Source of the DNA: Rhodobacterales bacterium HKCCSP123
Lineage (GTDB): Bacteria > Pseudomonadota > Alphaproteobacteria > Rhodobacterales > Rhodobacteraceae
Reading direction: 5' to 3'
Length of the DNA: 64,000 nucleotides
NCBI GenBank assembly: GCA_015689745.1
Contig: WVSO01000003.1
Location: 1 to 64,000 of the forward strand
Part shown: positions 27,486-56,574 of the stretch, one piece after another
Position numbering within the stretch: position 1 is the first letter of the stretch
How the letters are laid out: every line of letters starts with the position of its first letter
Notes under the pieces: generated by a model
The model's database searches: none
Told to the model about the DNA's origin: nothing
The model's input: only the letters and a program-made list of their open reading frames with translations
Program-made: the position numbers and the translations under genes

Positions 27486-28493
27486 TCAGTTACCTCCCGC
27501 CGGGACGCCGCCGAAGTCGCCGTAGGTGCCGTAGGCTTCGTAGCCATAAGCGCCGAGGTATTCGGGTGCGAAGTTGTGTTCGATGGCCCAGATGAACCAG
27601 TTGTCCACGACAGTGCCGGTGAGAAGGATCCCGATGCCGCCGGTGATCGGGGTCAGGACCGCGAACCACCAGGCCCAGCGGTGAATCCCCTCCATCGTGG
27701 CGTTGAAGCCCATCGTCCAGCGCCAGAATAGACCGGCGCGTTCGGATGCCGTGCCGCGGTCGTAGATCTGTTCCAGCTCGCGGTCGCCGCCGTAGCGGGA
27801 GACGGCCAGGATGGTCGCGCCATGCATCGCGAAGAGCAGGACGGAGCCATAGAGGAACACGATCGAAAGCGCGTGGAACGGGTTGTAGTAGAGGTTCCCG
27901 TAGCGGATCGAGAAGGCCGTGGTCCAATCGAGGTGCGGGAAGATGCCGTAGGGCACCGCCTCGGACCAGGATCCCATCAGGATGGGACGGAACAGGCCGA
28001 GGACGAGGAACAGCCAGATCGCCGCCAGGAAGGCCCAGGCGATATGCTTGCCCATCTGGTGCTGCGCGGCCAGGAGGTAGGTTCGCACCCACCACATCAT
28101 CACCGAGACGAGCAAGAAGAAGCTCGAGATGATGTACCACCCGCCGTCATTCAGCGGCGGGAAGCTGAGCCCGTATTCCGGTCCCGGAGGTTCGAGCGCC
28201 AGCCAGAAGAGCTGGCGGATGAACTGCGGGATCGACCAGTCGACCTGCGCCAGCATGTTGAAGCCGACGATGTTGAGCCAGAGCGTCCCGGTGGCAAGGC
28301 TGATGAGCCCCGCCCATCCGAGGTAGATCGGGCCGAGCTGCGCATTGCCCAACCAGCCGACCAGGGTCGAAAACCCGGCCTTGGTGGTGCGCTCTCCGCC
28401 CAGGATGTTCTCGCCGGTCTGGGCCATGCCCATCTCGGGCTCGCCCTGCACCTGCACCTGGGTGAAGATGTTCTGATACTCGAAGTAGGCCAT
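27486..28493 (-). CDS. pufM: Photosynthetic reaction centre M subunit
   Basis: This 335-residue subunit has five transmembrane helices and, with PufL, binds the special pair, bacteriopheophytins and quinones. [23 protein letters not shown] holds the special-pair histidine and a non-haem iron histidine; [20 protein letters not shown] holds another iron ligand. The N-terminus [15 protein letters not shown] is typical. The C-terminal tail (after [11 protein letters not shown]) is extended, as seen in species whose reaction centre carries PufC. It starts 3 nt after the pufL stop. Confidence 0.98.
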
Positions 28494-36612: not shown

Positions 36613-37482
36613 CTAGACCGCCTGGTGCGCCGGAAGGACCGGCGTCAGGCGTTCGGCGGTCTTGCGGACCATCTCGCAGAGCGCCGCTTCACCCGGACAG
36701 GAGGGGATCGAGGAGATGGCGCCCGACAGGATGTCCTCGAGTCGCCGGATCGCGCCGCGCACGCCCAGCTGGCTGACGGCGTTGGGGCGGCCGTTGATCT
36801 CGTCCTGGTGCGCGGGCTTGCCCAGTGTCACCTCGTCATAAAGCGCGTCGCGGAGGTCGTCTGCGACTTGGAACGCTTCGCCGATGCGCGCGCCCAGTTC
36901 TGTCCAGGCGTCGGGCTCTTCACCCGCGGCGGCGGCACCCATGCGCGTCGCGGCGGTGAACAGCGCGCCGGTCTTGGCGCGGTGATAGGCCGAAAGGTCG
37001 ATCTTCGCCTCGCTTTCCCAGCCTTGGCCGGCGCAGATGCCGCCCGGCATCCCCGTGGACTCGCCGAGGATGCGAATGAGCTGGATCGCGCGGGTCGGAT
37101 CGTCGGCGGCGGCGCGGGCCAGGACCTCGAAAGCCATGATGATGAGGGAATCCCCCGCCAGAAGCGCCAGCGGCTCGCCGTAGGCGCGGTGAACCGCGGG
37201 CTTGCCGCGACGTATGTCGGCATTGTCGAAGCAGGGCATGTCGTCATGCACCAGGCTTGCGCAGTGGATCAGCTCGATCGCGCTGGCCGCCGCATCGGCG
37301 ATCGCGGGGCGATCGTCGCCGCAGGCCATGGCCACCGACAGGCAGATCGTCGGGCGGATGCGCGCACCGCCGGGATTGACCGCGTACTCGAGCGCAGAGG
37401 CGAGCTTGGGCGGGGCCGCACCCGCCTGACCCTGCCGGATGGCGCTGGCGATGGCCGCTTCAATCCGGGGTTTCAAAGGCAT
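36613..37482 (-). CDS. crtE: Geranylgeranyl diphosphate synthase
   Basis: This 289-residue trans-prenyltransferase makes the C20 precursor for carotenoids and the bacteriochlorophyll tail. LVHDDMPCFDNADIRRG is the first aspartate-rich motif and FQVADDLRDALYD the second. The ATG at 37482 (MPLKPRIEAAIAS) gives the family length; the frame runs open upstream across the crtE-crtD control region without homology. It is the first gene of the crtE-crtF pair and is divergent from crtD. Confidence 0.96.
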   Translation of the reverse strand: MPLKPRIEAAIASAIRQGQAGAAPPKLASALEYAVNPGGARIRPTICLSVAMACGDDRPAIADAAASAIELIHCASLVHDDMPCFDNADIRRGKPAVHRAYGEPLALLAGDSLIIMAFEVLARAAADDPTRAIQLIRILGESTGMPGGICAGQGWESEAKIDLSAYHRAKTGALFTAATRMGAAAAGEEPDAWTELGARIGEAFQVADDLRDALYDEVTLGKPAHQDEINGRPNAVSQLGVRGAIRRLEDILSGAISSIPSCPGEAALCEMVRKTAERLTPVLPAHQAV

Positions 37483-37530
37483 GCGTGCCCCCTCTGTCCA
37501 AAAGAATCCGTGCAGACTGACACGGTTGCT

Positions 37531-37578
37531 GTAAACTAGGGTGGACAAATCATCTTGAGGTGTCAACATAATCTGACA
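37531..37578. promoter_or_regulatory. Two PpsR boxes between divergent crtE and crtD
   Basis: TGTAAACTAGGGTGGACA (37531-37548) and TGTCAACATAATCTGACA (37561-37578) are both exact TGT-N12-ACA sites, 12 bp apart, in the 114-bp gap between the crtE start (-) and the crtD start (+). They can control both directions. No convincing -10 element could be fixed for either side. Confidence 0.85.
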
Positions 37579-37596
37579 CTTCATTCGGAGATTGCC

Positions 37597-39162
37597 GTGA
37601 CAGACGCCCCCACCCGTGCGGTCGTGATCGGTGCCGGGGTTGGCGGCCTCTCGGCGGCGTTGCGGCTGGCCCATGCGGGGCTTGCGGTGACGGTGCTCGA
37701 CATGGCCGAGGGACCCGGCGGCAAGATGCGCACGCGCGACAGCGTGGCGGGCCCCGTGGATATCGGGCCGACCGTCATGACCCTGAAAGGCGTGTTCGAG
37801 ACGCTTTTTTCCGATGTCGGCGCGCGGCTTGCCGATAAAGTCACGCTGGTCCCCGACGAGGTTCTCGCCCGTCATTTCTGGCGGGATGGCTCCATGCTGG
37901 ACCTGTTCCACGATCCCGGCCGCAGTGCCGACGCCCTGCGCCTGTTCGGCGGCCCAAGGGCCGAGCAGGAATTCCGCCGCTTCTCCGAGCGCGCTAGGCG
38001 GCTTTACGAGGCGTTTGAAGGGCCGGTGATGCTTGCGCAAAGCCCAAGCTTCGCCGGTCTGACCGCGCATGTTCTGAGAAACCCCGCGCTGATCCCCGCG
38101 ATGGCACCGGGGCGCAGCCTTGCCGCGAGCCTTGCAGGCCAGTTCAGCGACCCGCGCCTGCGGCAGCTATTCGGGCGCTATGCGACCTATGTCGGCGGCT
38201 CGCCCTATCTCAGCCCCGCGGTTCTGGGCCTGATCTGGCAGTCCGAGGCGAGCGGCGTCTGGCGTGTCGAAGGCGGGATGCACAGGCTGGCGCAGGCGAT
38301 GCTGCGGCTGGCGCAGGACAAGGGCGCGACCTTCCGCTTCAACGCGCGCGCCGTCCGGATCGAGCAGCAGGACGGACAGGTCCGCGCCGTGCACCTGGAG
38401 GACGGCACCCGCATCCCCGCCGACCTGATCGTCTTCAACGGCGATCCCAAGGCGCTGGTCGATGGGCATCTGGGCCAGGGCCCCGCCGCCGCCGTGCCTC
38501 GCAGGGGGGTTGCGGCGCGCAGTCTCTCCGCCTTCGTCTGGGGCTTCGCCGCCACGCCCGCGGGGGTGGAGCTTGCGCATCACAACGTCTTCTTCTGCGA
38601 CGATCCCAGGCGCGAGTTCGGCGATCTCGCCGCCGGGCGGATGCCGGAGGACGGCACGCTTTACATCTGCGCGCAGGACCGCGGGGGCGAGACGCCCGTG
38701 GGTCCCGAGCGTTTCGAGATCATCCTGAACGGGCCGCCCGGGCACCCGTCGACGCCGGAGGACGCCTACCGATGCCGGACACGTACATTCGAAACACTGC
38801 GGAAGATGGGCCTCAGGTTCTCGCCGACGCCGGACGTCACGGCGCTGACCATGCCGGGGGATTTCGACCGCGCCTTTCCCGGCTCGGACGGTTCCCTCTA
38901 CGGGCTGTCCCCACATGGGATGATGGCGACCTTCCAGCGCCCGACGGCGCGGACGAAGCTCAGGGGGCTTTACCTGGCGGGGGGCGGGGCGCATCCGGGG
39001 GCGGGGATTCCCATGGCCTGCCTCTCAGGGAAGCACGCGGCCGCGGCGATCTTGAGCGACCTTGCTTCGACCTCGACGTTCCGCCGGACGGCTACGCCTG
39101 GTGGTATGTCGACGGGATCAGCGACGATGGCGAACGAGCCATCTCCATCATCGGCTTCATAG
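37597..39162 (+). CDS. crtD: Hydroxyneurosporene/methoxyneurosporene desaturase
   Basis: This 521-residue FAD-dependent carotenoid 3,4-desaturase of the CrtI family acts after CrtC in the spheroidene pathway. The FAD motif VVIGAGVGGLSAALRLAHAG is at residues about 8-27 and the C-terminal LYLAGGGAHPGAGIPMACLSGKHAA is the second FAD-binding segment. The GTG at 37597 is preceded by GGAG at 7 nt, deciding the start. The last third of the gene overlaps an open crtC frame; the real shared coding region is at least about 100 nt, where CrtD ends in an unstructured STFRRTATPGGMSTG tail. Confidence 0.95.
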   Translation: MTDAPTRAVVIGAGVGGLSAALRLAHAGLAVTVLDMAEGPGGKMRTRDSVAGPVDIGPTVMTLKGVFETLFSDVGARLADKVTLVPDEVLARHFWRDGSMLDLFHDPGRSADALRLFGGPRAEQEFRRFSERARRLYEAFEGPVMLAQSPSFAGLTAHVLRNPALIPAMAPGRSLAASLAGQFSDPRLRQLFGRYATYVGGSPYLSPAVLGLIWQSEASGVWRVEGGMHRLAQAMLRLAQDKGATFRFNARAVRIEQQDGQVRAVHLEDGTRIPADLIVFNGDPKALVDGHLGQGPAAAVPRRGVAARSLSAFVWGFAATPAGVELAHHNVFFCDDPRREFGDLAAGRMPEDGTLYICAQDRGGETPVGPERFEIILNGPPGHPSTPEDAYRCRTRTFETLRKMGLRFSPTPDVTALTMPGDFDRAFPGSDGSLYGLSPHGMMATFQRPTARTKLRGLYLAGGGAHPGAGIPMACLSGKHAAAAILSDLASTSTFRRTATPGGMSTGSATMANEPSPSSAS

Positions 39163-47841: not shown

Positions 47842-48674
47842 GGCCCAAGCACCGCGTTGCGCAGATCGTCATCGACCAGGGGCGTATAACCGAACCAGCG
47901 TTCGAAACCGGGCACCGCCTGGTGCAGCAACATGCCAAGACCGTCGACCGTCTCGCATCCGGCCTCGCGCGCCGTGCGAAGCAGCCCGGTTTCCAGCGGC
48001 TTGTAGACGATGTCGGTTACAACCGTCGGCGGGCCGAGGCGGGACAGGTCGATCGCAAGCGGCGGCTGGCCCTCCATCCCGAGCGATGTCGTGTTCACGA
48101 TCAGGGCGCAATCCTCGACAAGCTCGGGGATCCGCGTCCAGTCCTGCGGATCGACGCGCGCGCCGAACTGGTCCTTCAGCGCATCGGCACGGGCGCGCGT
48201 GCGGTTGGCCACGACCACCCGCGGCGCCCCGTCCGAGATCAGCGCCGAGACGATGGCCTTCGCCGCACCGCCCGAGCCCAGAACCAGTGCCGGCCCACTC
48301 GCCGCGGTCCAGCCCGGCAGCGCCTGGCGGATGTTGGTCAGGAACCCCTGGCCATCGGTGTTGTCGGCCTGAATCCGCCCGTCGGACATGAAGGTGATCG
48401 TGTTCGCCGCCCCGATCAGCGCGGCGCGGTCGGTCACGCTGGTCGCCAGCGACAGAACGTATTCCTTGTGCGGGATCGTGACGTTGACACCGACGAAGCC
48501 CATCCGAGGAAGCATGTGGAACGCATCCGCGAGATTGGCATGGGTGATGTGAAGGGGCACGTAATGCCCCCGCAACCCGTAGCGGCGCAGCCAGTGGCCA
48601 TGCAGCCTCGGCGACAGGGAATGGGAAATCGGGTCGCCGATCACGCCGGCGAGCGGGATCTCGGGACGGATCAT
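47838..48674 (-). CDS. aroE: Shikimate dehydrogenase
   Basis: This 278-residue NADP-dependent enzyme reduces 3-dehydroshikimate in aromatic amino acid synthesis. GDPISHSLSPRLHGHWL binds shikimate, NVTIPHKEYV holds the catalytic lysine, NTDGQGFL and LGSGGAAKAIVSAL form the cofactor site. The ATG at 48674 overlaps the maf stop; the longer open frame lies inside maf. Confidence 0.96.
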   Translation of the reverse strand: MIRPEIPLAGVIGDPISHSLSPRLHGHWLRRYGLRGHYVPLHITHANLADAFHMLPRMGFVGVNVTIPHKEYVLSLATSVTDRAALIGAANTITFMSDGRIQADNTDGQGFLTNIRQALPGWTAASGPALVLGSGGAAKAIVSALISDGAPRVVVANRTRARADALKDQFGARVDPQDWTRIPELVEDCALIVNTTSLGMEGQPPLAIDLSRLGPPTVVTDIVYKPLETGLLRTAREAGCETVDGLGMLLHQAVPGFERWFGYTPLVDDDLRNAVLGP

Positions 48675-49279
48675 GTGAAACTCCAGCCGCGCAAGCGCAG
48701 AAAGGAACAGATATCGAGCAAGGGCAACCCAAGCACGGAAAACCAGTCGCCGTCCATCCGGCTGAAGAGCCGTGCCCCGATGCTTTCCGCCTGGTAGGCT
48801 CCGACCGAGCTTGCCACCTCGGGCCATGCGAGGTCGAGATAGGCATCGATCTCGGCCGCGGTCAGAACATGCATGGTCATGCGGGCCACGCCGACATGGC
48901 GCCACGCCGGCTCGGTTCCGTCATAGATGACAGCCGCGGAATAGAGGTGGTGCGTCTGCCCGGAGAGGCGCGACAGCTGTTCTTTCGCCATCTCGCGGCT
49001 TTCGGGTTTCTCGAAAACCTCGGTCTTCAACGCGAGAACCTGGTCGCAACCGAGCGTCAGACCCGCTTCGGCAACCTTGCGCGCCTTGAATTCGGCCAGC
49101 GCGTCCGCCACATCACGGGGATGCGCGTCCTCGGCCAGCAGTGCATCGCGGATCGCGGCCTCGTCTATGCGCGCCGGACGAATCGTCGGCCGGAGACCCG
49201 CCGTTTCCAGCAACTGGCGACGGATATCGGAGGCGGAGGCGAGGGTGAGCTGCCCGTCGGGCACGGAAATCCTGTCCAT
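48671..49279 (-). CDS. maf: Maf-like nucleotide pyrophosphatase
   Basis: This roughly 200-residue Maf/YceF-family enzyme hydrolyses non-canonical or excess nucleoside triphosphates. LTLASASDIRRQLLETAG is the N-terminal signature and LTLGCDQVLAL the active-site segment. Three starts are possible: ATG 49291, ATG 49279 and GTG 49264; the last has the best ribosome-binding site (AGGA at 5 nt). 49279 is given as a compromise. It is the gene immediately left of the candidate oriC and is transcribed away from it. Confidence 0.9.
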   Translation of the reverse strand: MDRISVPDGQLTLASASDIRRQLLETAGLRPTIRPARIDEAAIRDALLAEDAHPRDVADALAEFKARKVAEAGLTLGCDQVLALKTEVFEKPESREMAKEQLSRLSGQTHHLYSAAVIYDGTEPAWRHVGVARMTMHVLTAAEIDAYLDLAWPEVASSVGAYQAESIGARLFSRMDGDWFSVLGLPLLDICSFLRLRGWSFT

Positions 49280-49284
49280 ATCCC

Positions 49285-49660
49285 TGTGCATAACGGAGGG
49301 GAGTTGTCGCCGACAATCGGGTTGATGCGCGATGTGGAAAAGACCCCTCGCGATGCGGCTTCCGGAACCCACGACCTGTTGCGGATTTGTCCACGGGGAA
49401 CAACCATTCACCGCCGTGGTCGGGATAGCTTGACAAAACTCGCCTGTCCCCGATCTTTTCCCACCCTATCCACAACATGAGGAGATTTAACACATTGAAT
49501 AATATATGTATTTTCTGATTTCCACAGACGCGGGAGACCCGTTCCGGGAGAAACATTCCCTTGGGAAAACCCGTTGGAGAACCGGTCGCGGATCAGGGTT
49601 TCGGCGTTGCTCACTGCGCTAAAGAAACAACAACCTTTCTATAAATCTATCTTTTCTTGA
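49285..49660. other. Candidate chromosomal replication origin (oriC) between maf and rho
   Basis: Five DnaA-box-like 9-mers lie here: TTATGCACA (minus, 49285-49293, exact TTATNCACA), TTTTCCACA (minus, 49333-49341, one mismatch to TTATCCACA), TTGTCCACG (49387-49395, two), CTATCCACA (49466-49474, one) and ATTTCCACA (49518-49526, two). The stretch 49481-49520 has only 9 G/C in 40 bases, and 49621-49660 only 10 in 40, in otherwise GC-rich DNA; either could be the unwinding element. Genes on both sides run away from it, and parA, parB and two parS sites lie within 7 kb. No convincing gene occurs in 49280-49804. Confidence 0.75.
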
Positions 49661-49685
49661 TACATGCCCCGGCCGTTCGCCAAGC

Positions 49686-49714
49686 TTGACAGGCGACAGG
49701 ACGGGCCATAGACG
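49686..49714 (+). promoter_or_regulatory. Possible rho promoter
   Basis: TTGACA (49686-49691) is followed at 17 nt by TAGACG, a poor -10, giving a leader of about 80 nt before rho. Long leaders are usual for rho because Rho controls its own synthesis. This is a weak call. Confidence 0.3.
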
Positions 49715-49804
49715 ACAGGTGCCTTTCGTCCGAAAGCGCATCTTCCAGACGATGATGACAAACAGGAACGCCCTGCCTGGGCTGTCCTGCGACAGGATAT
49801 TTCC

Positions 49805-51076
49805 ATGAGTGCTACGACGCTGAAACTTGCCGATCTGAAGGCGAAGTCCCCCAAGGACCTTCTGGCGATGGCCGAAGACCTCGAGATCGAGAACGCCTCG
49901 ACCATGCGCAAGGGCGAGATGATGTTCGAGATCCTGCGCGAGCGGGCGGACGAAGGCTGGGAAATTTCCGGTGACGGTGTGCTCGAGGTGCTGCAGGACG
50001 GCTTCGGTTTCCTTCGATCGCCCGAAGCGAACTACCTGCCGGGTCCCGATGACATCTATGTCAGCCCCGAGATGATCCGTCAGCATTCGCTCCGCACCGG
50101 CGACACCGTCGAAGGGACGATGACCGCGCCGCGCGACAACGAGCGCTACTTCGCGCTTGTGACCGTGCAGGCGATCAACTTCCAGGATCCCGAGCGGGCG
50201 CGCCACAAGGTCGCCTTCGACAACCTGACGCCGCTTTACCCGGACGAGCGGTTGAAGATGGAAATCGAGGATCCCACGATCAAGGATCGCTCGGCACGCA
50301 TCATCGACCTGGTCGCGCCGATCGGGAAGGGGCAGCGGGCGCTGATCGTGGCACCGCCCCGCACCGGCAAGACGGTGCTGTTGCAGAACATCGCCCATTC
50401 GATCGAGACCAACCACCCCGAGTGTTACCTGATCGTCCTTCTGATCGACGAACGCCCGGAAGAAGTGACCGACATGCAGCGCAGCGTGAAGGGCGAGGTG
50501 ATTTCCTCGACCTTCGACGAACCCGCAACGCGGCACGTCGCGGTTGCCGAAATGGTCATTGAAAAGGCCAAGCGCCTTGTCGAGCACAAGCGCGACGTCG
50601 TCATCCTGCTGGACTCGATCACGCGTCTTGGCCGTGCCTACAACACCGTCGTTCCGTCCTCGGGCAAGGTTCTGACCGGTGGCGTGGATGCCAACGCGTT
50701 GCAACGTCCCAAGCGGTTCTTCGGTGCGGCCAGGAACATCGAGGAAGGCGGATCGCTCACCATCATCGCGACGGCGCTGATCGACACCGGCAGCCGTATG
50801 GACGAGGTGATCTTCGAGGAATTCAAGGGCACCGGCAACAGCGAGATCGTGCTGGACCGCAAGGTCGCCGACAAGCGCGTCTTCCCGGCGATGGACATTC
50901 TCAAGTCCGGCACCCGGAAAGAGGATCTGCTCGTCGAAAAGGGCGATCTGCAGAAAACCTATGTCCTGCGCCGCATCCTGAACCCGATGGGTACGACCGA
51001 CGCCATCGAGTTCCTGATCTCGAAGCTCAAGCAGACCAAGACGAATTCCGAGTTCTTCGACTCGATGAACGCATAA
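49805..51076 (+). CDS. rho: Transcription termination factor Rho
   Basis: This 423-residue hexameric RNA helicase ends transcription. The N-terminal [36 protein letters not shown] domain is followed by the RNA-binding cold-shock-like domain (about 50-115, [17 protein letters not shown]). [11 protein letters not shown] is Walker A and [16 protein letters not shown] includes Walker B. It is the first gene to the right of the candidate oriC and is followed 12 nt later by mnmE. Confidence 0.98.
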
Positions 51077-52369: not shown

Positions 52370-52381
52370 AAGGTGTTTCAC

Positions 52382-54243
<1,862 letters not shown>

Positions 54244-54247
<4 letters not shown>

Positions 54248-54870
54248 CCGATGACGAGGCAAAGGCCGCCCTCGCCGCCCGTGTTTCACGTGAAACACTC
54301 GGCCGGCTCGATCTCTATGCCGGGTTGCTGGTGAAATGGCAGGCCGCGATCAACCTTGTCTCTCCGACAACGCTGCCGCAGCTCTGGCTTCGCCACATGC
54401 TCGACAGCGCACAGGTGTTCGATCATGTGCCAGACTCGGCAAGGCGCTGGATCGATTTCGGCAGCGGCGGCGGGTTTCCCGGCCTTGTCTGCGCGGCCAT
54501 CGCCGCGGAAAAGCGCCCCGATCTTCGGATCACGCTGGTGGAATCCGACATGCGAAAGGGGGCTTTCCTTCGGGAAGCCGCCCGGCAGATGGGCGTTGCG
54601 GTCGACGTGCTGACCCGACGGGTCGAGGATGTTCCGCCGTCCAGGTCCGACGTCGTCAGCGCCCGCGCGCTTGCACCGCTTGCCACCCTCTGCGCCTATG
54701 CGATGCCGCACCTGGGGCCCGACGGCATCTGCCTGTTTCAGAAGGGCGCACGCCACGCCGAGGAGCTTGAAACGGCGCGGCAGGACTGGCAGATGGATGT
54801 GACGACGATCCCGAGCGTCACCGATCCCGACGCGGTCCTTCTGAAACTGGAAAACCTGCGCCATGCCTGA
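54244..54870 (+). CDS. rsmG: 16S rRNA (guanine-527-N7)-methyltransferase RsmG (GidB)
   Basis: This 208-residue SAM methyltransferase modifies G527 of 16S r[30 protein letters not shown] is the N-terminal signature and [14 protein letters not shown] the SAM-binding loop. The second parS site is embedded in codons 13-18 (VSRET), so the DNA serves both as code and as centromere. Loss of this methylation is known to give low-level streptomycin resistance in other bacteria. It overlaps parA by 8 nt. Confidence 0.96.
54282..54297. other. parS centromere site 2, inside rsmG
   Basis: A second TGTTTCACGTGAAACA, identical to site 1 and 1.9 kb from it, lies within the rsmG coding sequence. Two exact copies so close together and next to parAB are strong evidence for a functional chromosomal centromere. 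Confidence 0.95.
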
Positions 54871-55663
54871 GCTGTCCGCCCCGAGGATCCTCGCGATCAC
54901 CAACCAGAAGGGCGGGGTCGGCAAGACGACAACGGCGATCAACCTCGGTGCGGCGCTGGCGCAATTGGGCGAGCGCGTTCTGATCATCGACCTCGATCCG
55001 CAGGGGAACGCATCGACCGGCCTCGGGATTTCGGCGCGCGACCGGGACAACACGACCTACGAACTGCTGCACGAGGAGGCGCCGCTCTCTTCGGTCATCC
55101 GCAAGACGGGGGTGGAGCGGCTGGACATCGCTCCGGGAACGACCGATCTCAGCTCGACCGATGTCGAGCTCGGGCAGCACGAGAACCGCATTTTCCTGCT
55201 GAAGGACGCGCTGTCGACGGATGGTCTTGCCGCCTACGATTACGTCCTGATCGATTGTCCGCCGTCGCTCAGCCTTCTGACGGTCAACGCGCTCGTCGCC
55301 TGCCATGCGGTGCTGGTACCGCTTCAAGCCGAGTTCTTCGCGCTGGAAGGCCTGTCACAGCTGATGCTCACCGTCCGTGACGTGCGCGAAACGGCCAACC
55401 CCGGGCTGCGGATCGAGGGGGTGGTGCTGACCATGTTCGATCAACGCAACAACCTGAGCCAACAGGTCGAAGAGGATGCGCGCGGCACGCTTGGCGAGCT
55501 TGTGCTGAACACGCGGATCCCGCGCAATGTCCGCCTGAGCGAGGCGCCTTCCTACGCGCTTCCGGTTCTGGCCTATGATCCGTCGTCGAAGGGCAGCCAG
55601 GCCTACGTCGAACTGGCCGAGGAAGTCCTTGCACGGCATGCGAAACGGAAGGAGCCGGCATAA
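54863..55663 (+). CDS. parA: Chromosome-partitioning ATPase ParA
   Basis: This 266-residue deviant-Walker ATPase forms the DNA-bound gradient that pulls ParB-parS complexes apart. ITNQKGGVGKTTTAINLG is the Walker A with signature lysine, DLDPQGNASTGLG the A' motif, and YDYVLIDCPPSLS the Walker B. Length and the rsmG-parA-parB order match chromosomal, not plasmid, Par systems. The stop shares a base with the parB start. Confidence 0.97.
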   Translation: MPELSAPRILAITNQKGGVGKTTTAINLGAALAQLGERVLIIDLDPQGNASTGLGISARDRDNTTYELLHEEAPLSSVIRKTGVERLDIAPGTTDLSSTDVELGQHENRIFLLKDALSTDGLAAYDYVLIDCPPSLSLLTVNALVACHAVLVPLQAEFFALEGLSQLMLTVRDVRETANPGLRIEGVVLTMFDQRNNLSQQVEEDARGTLGELVLNTRIPRNVRLSEAPSYALPVLAYDPSSKGSQAYVELAEEVLARHAKRKEPA

Positions 55664-56574
55664 TGGTCAAGCGGCGCGAGCGCACAGGTCTTGGGCGGGG
55701 CCTGTCGGCCCTGTTGGCCGATATCGAAACGCCCGGCACCGCGCCGACGGACGGGCAGCCGGGTCCGGCCGAGGCCACGCCGCGCGGCCTCCGGACTGTG
55801 CCGATCGACCGGATCGTGCCCAACCCCGATCAGCCGCGCCGCAGCTTCGCCGAGGACGCGCTCAACGAGCTGGCCGAATCGATCCGCGAAAAGGGCGTGA
55901 TCCAGCCGCTGATCGTGCGGGCAGACCCCAGGGATTCCTCGAAATTCCAGATCGTTGCGGGTGAGCGGCGCTGGCGCGCATCGCAGCGGGCGCAGCTGCA
56001 TGACCTGCCGGTGATCGTGCGCGAGTTCGATGACACCGAGGTTCTCGAGGTCGCGATCATCGAGAATATCCAGCGCGCCGATCTGAACGCCCTGGAAGAG
56101 GCGCTGGGCTATCGGCAACTGATCGACCGCTTCGGTCACACGCAGGAGCAGCTTGCGACGGCGCTGGGCAAGAGCCGCAGCCATATTGCCAACATGATGC
56201 GGCTTCTGGGTCTGCCCGAAGAAATCCAGGACATGTTGCGCGCCGGACAGCTGAGCGCGGGGCATGCGCGGGCGCTTCTGACGGCCGACGACCCTCTGAC
56301 GCTTGCGCGGCAGGCGGTGGCCAAGGGGCTTTCGGTGCGGGACGTGGAGAAGCGCGCCAAGGCAAGGACGTCCGGCGCCGCGAAGAAGCGTCCGACGACG
56401 GGCGGTGGCAAGGATGCCGATACCATCGCGCTCGAGGGCGATCTGAGCGCCTCGCTCGGAATGCCGGTCAACATCGCGCATGATGCGGCAAGCGGGGGTG
56501 GGTTGGTGACGATCCGTTATGCCGACCTGGAAAAGCTGGATGACATCATCCGCCTTCTGGGCAGCAGCCGCTGA
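55663..56574 (+). CDS. parB: Chromosome-partitioning protein ParB
   Basis: This 303-residue CTP-dependent clamp loads at parS. The N-terminal RTGLGRGLSALLAD helix stimulates ParA; VPNPDQPRRSFAEDALNELAESI and VAGERRWRASQRAQL (GERRxRA motif) belong to the CTPase domain; a helix-turn-helix follows (about 140-185, FGHTQEQLATALGKSRSHIANMMRLL). The C-terminal domain dimerises. Its two cognate sites lie just upstream. Confidence 0.97.
   Translation: MVKRRERTGLGRGLSALLADIETPGTAPTDGQPGPAEATPRGLRTVPIDRIVPNPDQPRRSFAEDALNELAESIREKGVIQPLIVRADPRDSSKFQIVAGERRWRASQRAQLHDLPVIVREFDDTEVLEVAIIENIQRADLNALEEALGYRQLIDRFGHTQEQLATALGKSRSHIANMMRLLGLPEEIQDMLRAGQLSAGHARALLTADDPLTLARQAVAKGLSVRDVEKRAKARTSGAAKKRPTTGGGKDADTIALEGDLSASLGMPVNIAHDAASGGGLVTIRYADLEKLDDIIRLLGSSR

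Follow-up and report, generated by a model that had tools for sequence, protein, structure and literature searches.

The intergenic gap between the divergent genes maf and rho of a Roseicyclus-like member of the Rhodobacterales contains several words resembling DnaA boxes and two AT-rich blocks. It raises the question of whether replication of the chromosome starts there. The stretch of DNA analysed (the window) comprises bases 1–64000 of contig C111 (113,959 bases), which belongs to a draft assembly with 187 contigs and 3.97 Mb in total. A first-pass annotation of the window had proposed a probable oriC between maf and rho. This proposal was upheld: the maf–rho gap is very probably the chromosomal oriC of this bacterium, because its anatomy and the gene order around it are conserved, its box cluster is unusual and a parABS system lies nearby.

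Boxes, AT-rich blocks and parS sites around the gap

A non-coding gap of 525 bp, as annotated, separates the start of maf on the minus strand from that of rho on the plus strand (Table 1). The change of gene direction at the gap was also found again: the minus strand carries the genes of the dnaQ, coaE, aroE and maf families, and the plus strand carries rho, mnmE, mnmG, rsmG, parA and parB. A search of the window against Rfam gave no match at gathering scores.

Table 1. Features in and around the maf–rho gap, in window coordinates. The placement of the parS sites within mnmG and rsmG is as called from the ORF list.
Feature	Coordinates	Strand	Remarks
maf (Maf-like protein)	48671..49279	-	PF02545; start at 49279
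maf–rho intergenic gap	49280..49804	.	Length 525 bp; proposed oriC in the left 380 bases
DnaA-like box 1, TTATGCACA	49285..49293	-	Position and word shared by 10/12 genus gaps; two have TTATCAACA instead
DnaA-like box 2, TTTTCCACA	49333..49341	-	
DnaA-like box 3, TTGTCCACG	49387..49395	+	2 mismatches; in a well conserved block of columns
DnaA-like box 4, CTATCCACA	49466..49474	+	Adjoins AT-rich block 1
AT-rich block 1, proposed unwinding element	49482..49521	.	8 G/C of 40
DnaA-like box 5, ATTTCCACA	49518..49526	+	2 mismatches
AT-rich block 2	49619..49658	.	10 G/C of 40
Element GCTTGACAG	49684..49692	+	8/9 columns identical over 12 genus gaps, the ninth nearly so
rho, transcription terminator	49805..51076	+	PF07497, PF07498, PF00006; start at 49805
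parS site 1, exact 16-mer	52374..52389	+	Inside mnmG ORF, at first codons
parS site 2, exact 16-mer	54282..54297	+	Inside rsmG ORF, within first 20 codons
parA	54863..55663	+	PF13614
parB	55663..56574	+	PF02195, PF17762, PF23552

DnaA boxes were searched with at most two or at most one mismatch to TTATCCACA, and with the looser pattern TTWTNCACA. Exactly five sites with up to two mismatches were found in the gap (boxes 1 to 5), in agreement with the five box-like sequences annotated there, and the average of the window would give 0.58 such sites per 525 bp. Three of the five carry one mismatch, and two sites in the gap fit the looser pattern. One box had been annotated as exact. This was an error with respect to TTATCCACA, of which the gap and the whole window contain no exact copy. 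The exact consensus was dropped as a criterion, as it is missing from the gap although the element is conserved.

Sites with one mismatch to TTATCCACA number nine in the whole window, where 2.93 are expected, a count equalled in none of 100 shuffles. There is no enrichment across the whole genome, which holds 154 such sites and 268 for the reversed pattern. TTWTNCACA is also hardly commoner than its reversed control (36 sites and 29, respectively). Only one pair of these 36 sites lies less than 1 kb apart, and it is the pair in the gap; likewise, among 100 listed of the 154 one-mismatch sites, this gap alone has three within 525 bp. The same search was applied to 2,041,871 sampled bases from 101 sources, 12 of them with a maf–rho gap, and gave 128 one-mismatch sites. 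Three boxes come together within 525 bp at five places in this sample, and each of these is a maf–rho gap (those of the window, G003, G005, G007 and G004; G numbers denote genomes). With one or two boxes each, the remaining seven of the 12 gaps fall short of three. In G020, which belongs to another genus, the sole three-box cluster in 400 kb of sampled sequence comes to within 16 bases of the maf match. The DnaA-box cluster of the gap is rare in the sequence examined and unusual for its genome, its boxes being degenerate and none of them exact.

The 40-mers of lowest GC content in the window start at 49482, with eight G/C, and at 49619, with 10 (tied with 57575). Two such blocks, with nine and 10 G/C, had been annotated. 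Judged by base composition, a candidate AT-rich unwinding element therefore lies beside the boxes. The CtrA site TTAA-N7-TTAA was searched as an exact pattern and occurs neither in the gap nor in the window, so that a CtrA block of the Caulobacter type is not indicated by the exact consensus. GANTC sites are absent from the gap.

Two exact 16-mers are the only parS matches with up to three mismatches in the window, where 0.04 are expected. They and the parA–parB pair lie less than 7 kb from the gap, as had been annotated, so that a parABS system neighbours the putative origin. Closeness of parAB to ori has been reported for almost all alphaproteobacterial genomes of one study, with some exceptions that include Rhodobacterales (PMC8116508).

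Conservation of the gap and of its gene order

The gap was compared with 40 related loci, 11 from the genus and 29 from the family, giving 41 gaps with that of the window. The family loci were the best maf matches among the 180 of 199 genomes that had a match. Divergent maf and rho were found in 40/40 loci. Gap size is 518–542 bp in the 11 genus loci and 469–564 or 925–1006 bp in the 29 family loci. Two of the longer gaps were opened (loci L078 and L103) and contain a UPF0093 gene, which we take to be HemJ-type, between the gap and rho (L078:637–1131 and L103:2480–2932). At least 400 extra bases in other relatives hint at the same gene in this position. In the genus of the window, rho follows the gap directly, without a UPF0093 gene.

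With at most one mismatch, 99 boxes were counted in the 41 gaps, against 5.32 in shuffles preserving base content but not dinucleotide content (about 19-fold). The same shuffles gave 0.11 exact boxes, against 11 in the gaps. At least one box with up to one mismatch is present in 39/41 gaps; the other two, L076 (the closest maf outside the genus among the family matches) and L080, have none in the gap. Within the genus, an exact box occurs in 0/12 gaps, and 7/12 have fewer than three boxes with up to one mismatch. Box positions recur over the 41 gaps, mostly at 0–20 (12 of 13 from the genus), 120–200 and 240–320 bases from maf. The two AT-rich blocks also keep their place in terms of average GC: the mean over the 41 gaps falls to 0.26–0.33 at 201–240 and to 0.31–0.38 at 341–380 bases from the maf start. 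Many columns that are invariant in the genus alignment fall in the first box and in the TCCACGGGGA block.

The gene order was then checked across the class in 86 genomes, 26 of which lacked a match to maf at the cut-off used. Among the 59 genomes with a maf match (our own left out), rho was found in 58 and on the same contig in 48. The two genes are divergent and within 10 kb of each other in 45 of these 48, which suggests one ancestral neighbourhood across the class.

The gap resembles Cori of Caulobacter crescentus, and the Rickettsia and Wolbachia origins predicted on its model, in being intergenic and in having DnaA boxes and an AT-rich block of about 40 bp. Cori is located between hemE and COG1806 and is reported to have five CtrA sites (PMC1914354). 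In contrast, the gap is flanked by maf and rho and has no CtrA consensus site in an exact search. It would function in the manner of Cori, but these two differences keep it out of the Cori type. For the Rhodobacteraceae, oriC has been treated in Ori-Finder predictions for 101 strains (PMC6699656) and, as oriC1, in R. sphaeroides (PMC6315104). By the criteria of the former study, DnaA boxes are overrepresented in the gap, its GC content reaches a local minimum and parAB is close by, whereas closeness to the GC disparity minimum was not confirmed.

GC skew, dnaA and other readings of the gap

In the best surviving alternative, replication starts at another place of the ori-proximal region, possibly close to dnaA, and the maf–rho gap is a former or accessory site of DnaA binding. 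This reading is improbable. GC skew bears on it. An origin should show negative skew on its left. No switch of skew was found at the gap within the window, the skew being slightly positive to the left and near zero to the right. Outside the window, skew was calculated from sampled 20-kb stretches, which include some but not all of those near the minima. The skew minimum, which the first-pass annotation had put forward as a check, did not confirm the place: besides the lack of a switch in the window, the distance between the sampled minimum and maf is 93–319 kb in three complete relatives.

In G097, the sampled minimum (2.42 Mb) is 319 kb from maf and nearer to dnaA (187 kb), which favours an origin near dnaA, but the skew remains negative across dnaA. 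The minimum of G153 is at 0.52 Mb, with near-equal values at 0.30–0.35 Mb, and that of G020, which has the strongest skew, is at 2.77–2.82 Mb. Both speak against dnaA, from which they are 493 and 404 kb away, respectively, compared with 107 kb (G153) and 93–143 kb (G020) from maf. The maf–rho place is thus nearer to the sampled minimum in two relatives and dnaA in one; dnaA is not their common minimum and the maf–rho place is not confirmed.

The complete genome of G004, from the same genus as the window, is a single contig of 3,552,491 bases with maf at 3.405 Mb and dnaA at 461. A steady rise of the sampled skew starts only at dnaA, 148 kb from maf, and this also favours an origin near dnaA. 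About 130 kb on the side of the photosynthesis gene cluster (PGC) mostly have the wrong sign for a maf–rho origin. There is no clean minimum in G004: the lowest cumulative skew in a sparse sampling is at 2.52 Mb, 885 kb from maf, and lesser dips are at 3.22 Mb and at dnaA. The polarity of KOPS-like motifs GGGNAGGG switches between 1.64 and 1.80 Mb in the sampled stretches of this genome, and this region is probably the terminus. By arithmetic, its antipode is 3.42–0.02 Mb, which extends from beside maf–rho to just past dnaA and therefore does not choose between the two places.

The position of dnaA itself varies. In the genome of the window, it is on another contig than the gap (G000:C1:120117–120602). 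Relative to maf, it is on the PGC side in G003, G004 and G005 and on the rho side in G006, and it is about 27–505 kb away in 15 of 26 genomes, those in which the distance could be worked out. The region has therefore been rearranged, which could displace the skew minima. Such rearrangement, which would disturb the skew, weakens the case for dnaA, and so does the scarcity of boxes around this gene. Boxes with up to one mismatch are absent from the dnaA locus (3.5 kb) of our genome and from the two G004 stretches around dnaA, and the 20-kb stretch with dnaA in G020 has five that are scattered and form no cluster. Conservation of dnaA close to ori in Rhodobacterales has been reported (PMC8116508), which fits either place.

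GC skew was dropped as a means of deciding, the minima being displaced or unclear in G004, G097, G153 and G020. Correction for gene direction by the skew of third codon positions (G004, G097 and G153) did not sharpen them. Skew has been called insufficient in several Alphaproteobacteria (PMC1914354). Other kinds of data are reported for the group: marker frequencies for R. sphaeroides and Paracoccus (PMC13342612, 2026) and, in a study of D. shibae vesicle DNA, a terminus (PMC7901474).

According to a second alternative, the gap is purely regulatory, and its boxes and AT-rich blocks control transcription of maf and rho without origin function. A conserved TTGACA-like element in the right part of the gap and the location of box 1, 6–14 bases from the maf start, agree with this. 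The element GCTTGACAG is probably the −35 region of a rho promoter and not part of oriC. It was not listed by a promoter scan, which gave one site in the AT-rich block where 0.3 are expected; that site was not counted as evidence. However, the boxes are mostly in the 320 bases nearest maf, away from the rho side, and their placement is the same in L078 and L103, where the next gene is UPF0093 and not rho. Moreover, origin function and regulation can coexist, and a purely regulatory role is very unlikely. That box-like words arose by chance in an AT-rich gap of a GC-rich genome is scarcely credible: the boxes are degenerate in the genus and one-mismatch boxes are not enriched genome-wide, but their excess over the base-composition shuffles and their recurring positions contradict it.

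If the maf–rho gap is oriC, DnaA, whose gene is elsewhere, would bind the boxes at 49285–49526 and melt the AT-rich block at 49482–49521, perhaps also that at 49619–49658. From there, one fork would proceed through maf and the PGC and another, in the opposite direction, through rho and parAB, and ParB on the two parS sites would move the new origins apart. Anatomy and gene order thus place the probable origin of a phototrophic genus of the Rhodobacterales in which GC skew is an unreliable guide, and the divergent maf–rho gap may serve as a marker by which draft genomes of this group are oriented.

The photosynthesis gene cluster near the gap

The gap itself is an ordinary kind of element at a conserved place; the mildly interesting part is the linkage of the PGC to the probable origin. 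The PGC had been annotated about 10 kb from the gap. A distance of about 11 kb was measured to a polyprenyl synthetase gene at 36613–38070, presumably crtE-like, with pigment and reaction-centre genes further left. Two ORFs at 38.7–40.1 kb gave no Pfam match. In the window, pufM is at 27570–28328. It is 19,978–22,198 bases from maf in 10/10 genus genomes with both genes on one contig; in the remaining three, the genes are on different short contigs (G010) or there is no Photo_RC match (G009 and G011). The PGC had also been annotated as chromosomal rather than plasmid-borne, and this is supported, since pufM is 21 kb from maf in the single contig (3.55 Mb) of G004 and core genes surround the PGC.

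In the family sample, Photo_RC was found in 74/199 genomes. The listed maf and puf places are on one contig in 23 of these (our own left out), and 18 of the 23 are within 150 kb, a count that favours short distances as it includes only genomes with both genes listed on one contig. Fifteen PGC genomes have at most 10 contigs, and 10 of them have both genes on one contig, within 150 kb in six (G039, G040, G112, G132, G151 and G175) and far apart in four (G056, G100, G153 and G164). As to the other five, the genes are on different contigs in three (G122, G163 and G196) and no maf is listed in two (G050 and G063). Taking 300 kb out of a chromosome of 4 Mb, we estimate that a distance of up to 150 kb has a chance of about 7.5%.

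No statement that the PGC is near oriC was found in the literature searched; placement of flagellar genes near oriC is reported (PMC12363192). The first-pass annotation had predicted a rise of PGC dosage in fast-growing cells. Such an effect is plausible. Replication cycles of R. sphaeroides are reported not to overlap (PMC6315104), and the gain may therefore be at most about two-fold. A more tentative idea, which we consider rather doubtful, is that selection holds the PGC near the origin in the genus and in a good part of the family, either for gene dosage or for synthesis of pigment–protein near the cell pole with the ParB-bound origin. In those members of the genus that could be assessed, the PGC is an ori-proximal chromosomal trait, which makes an effect of dosage or of placement testable.
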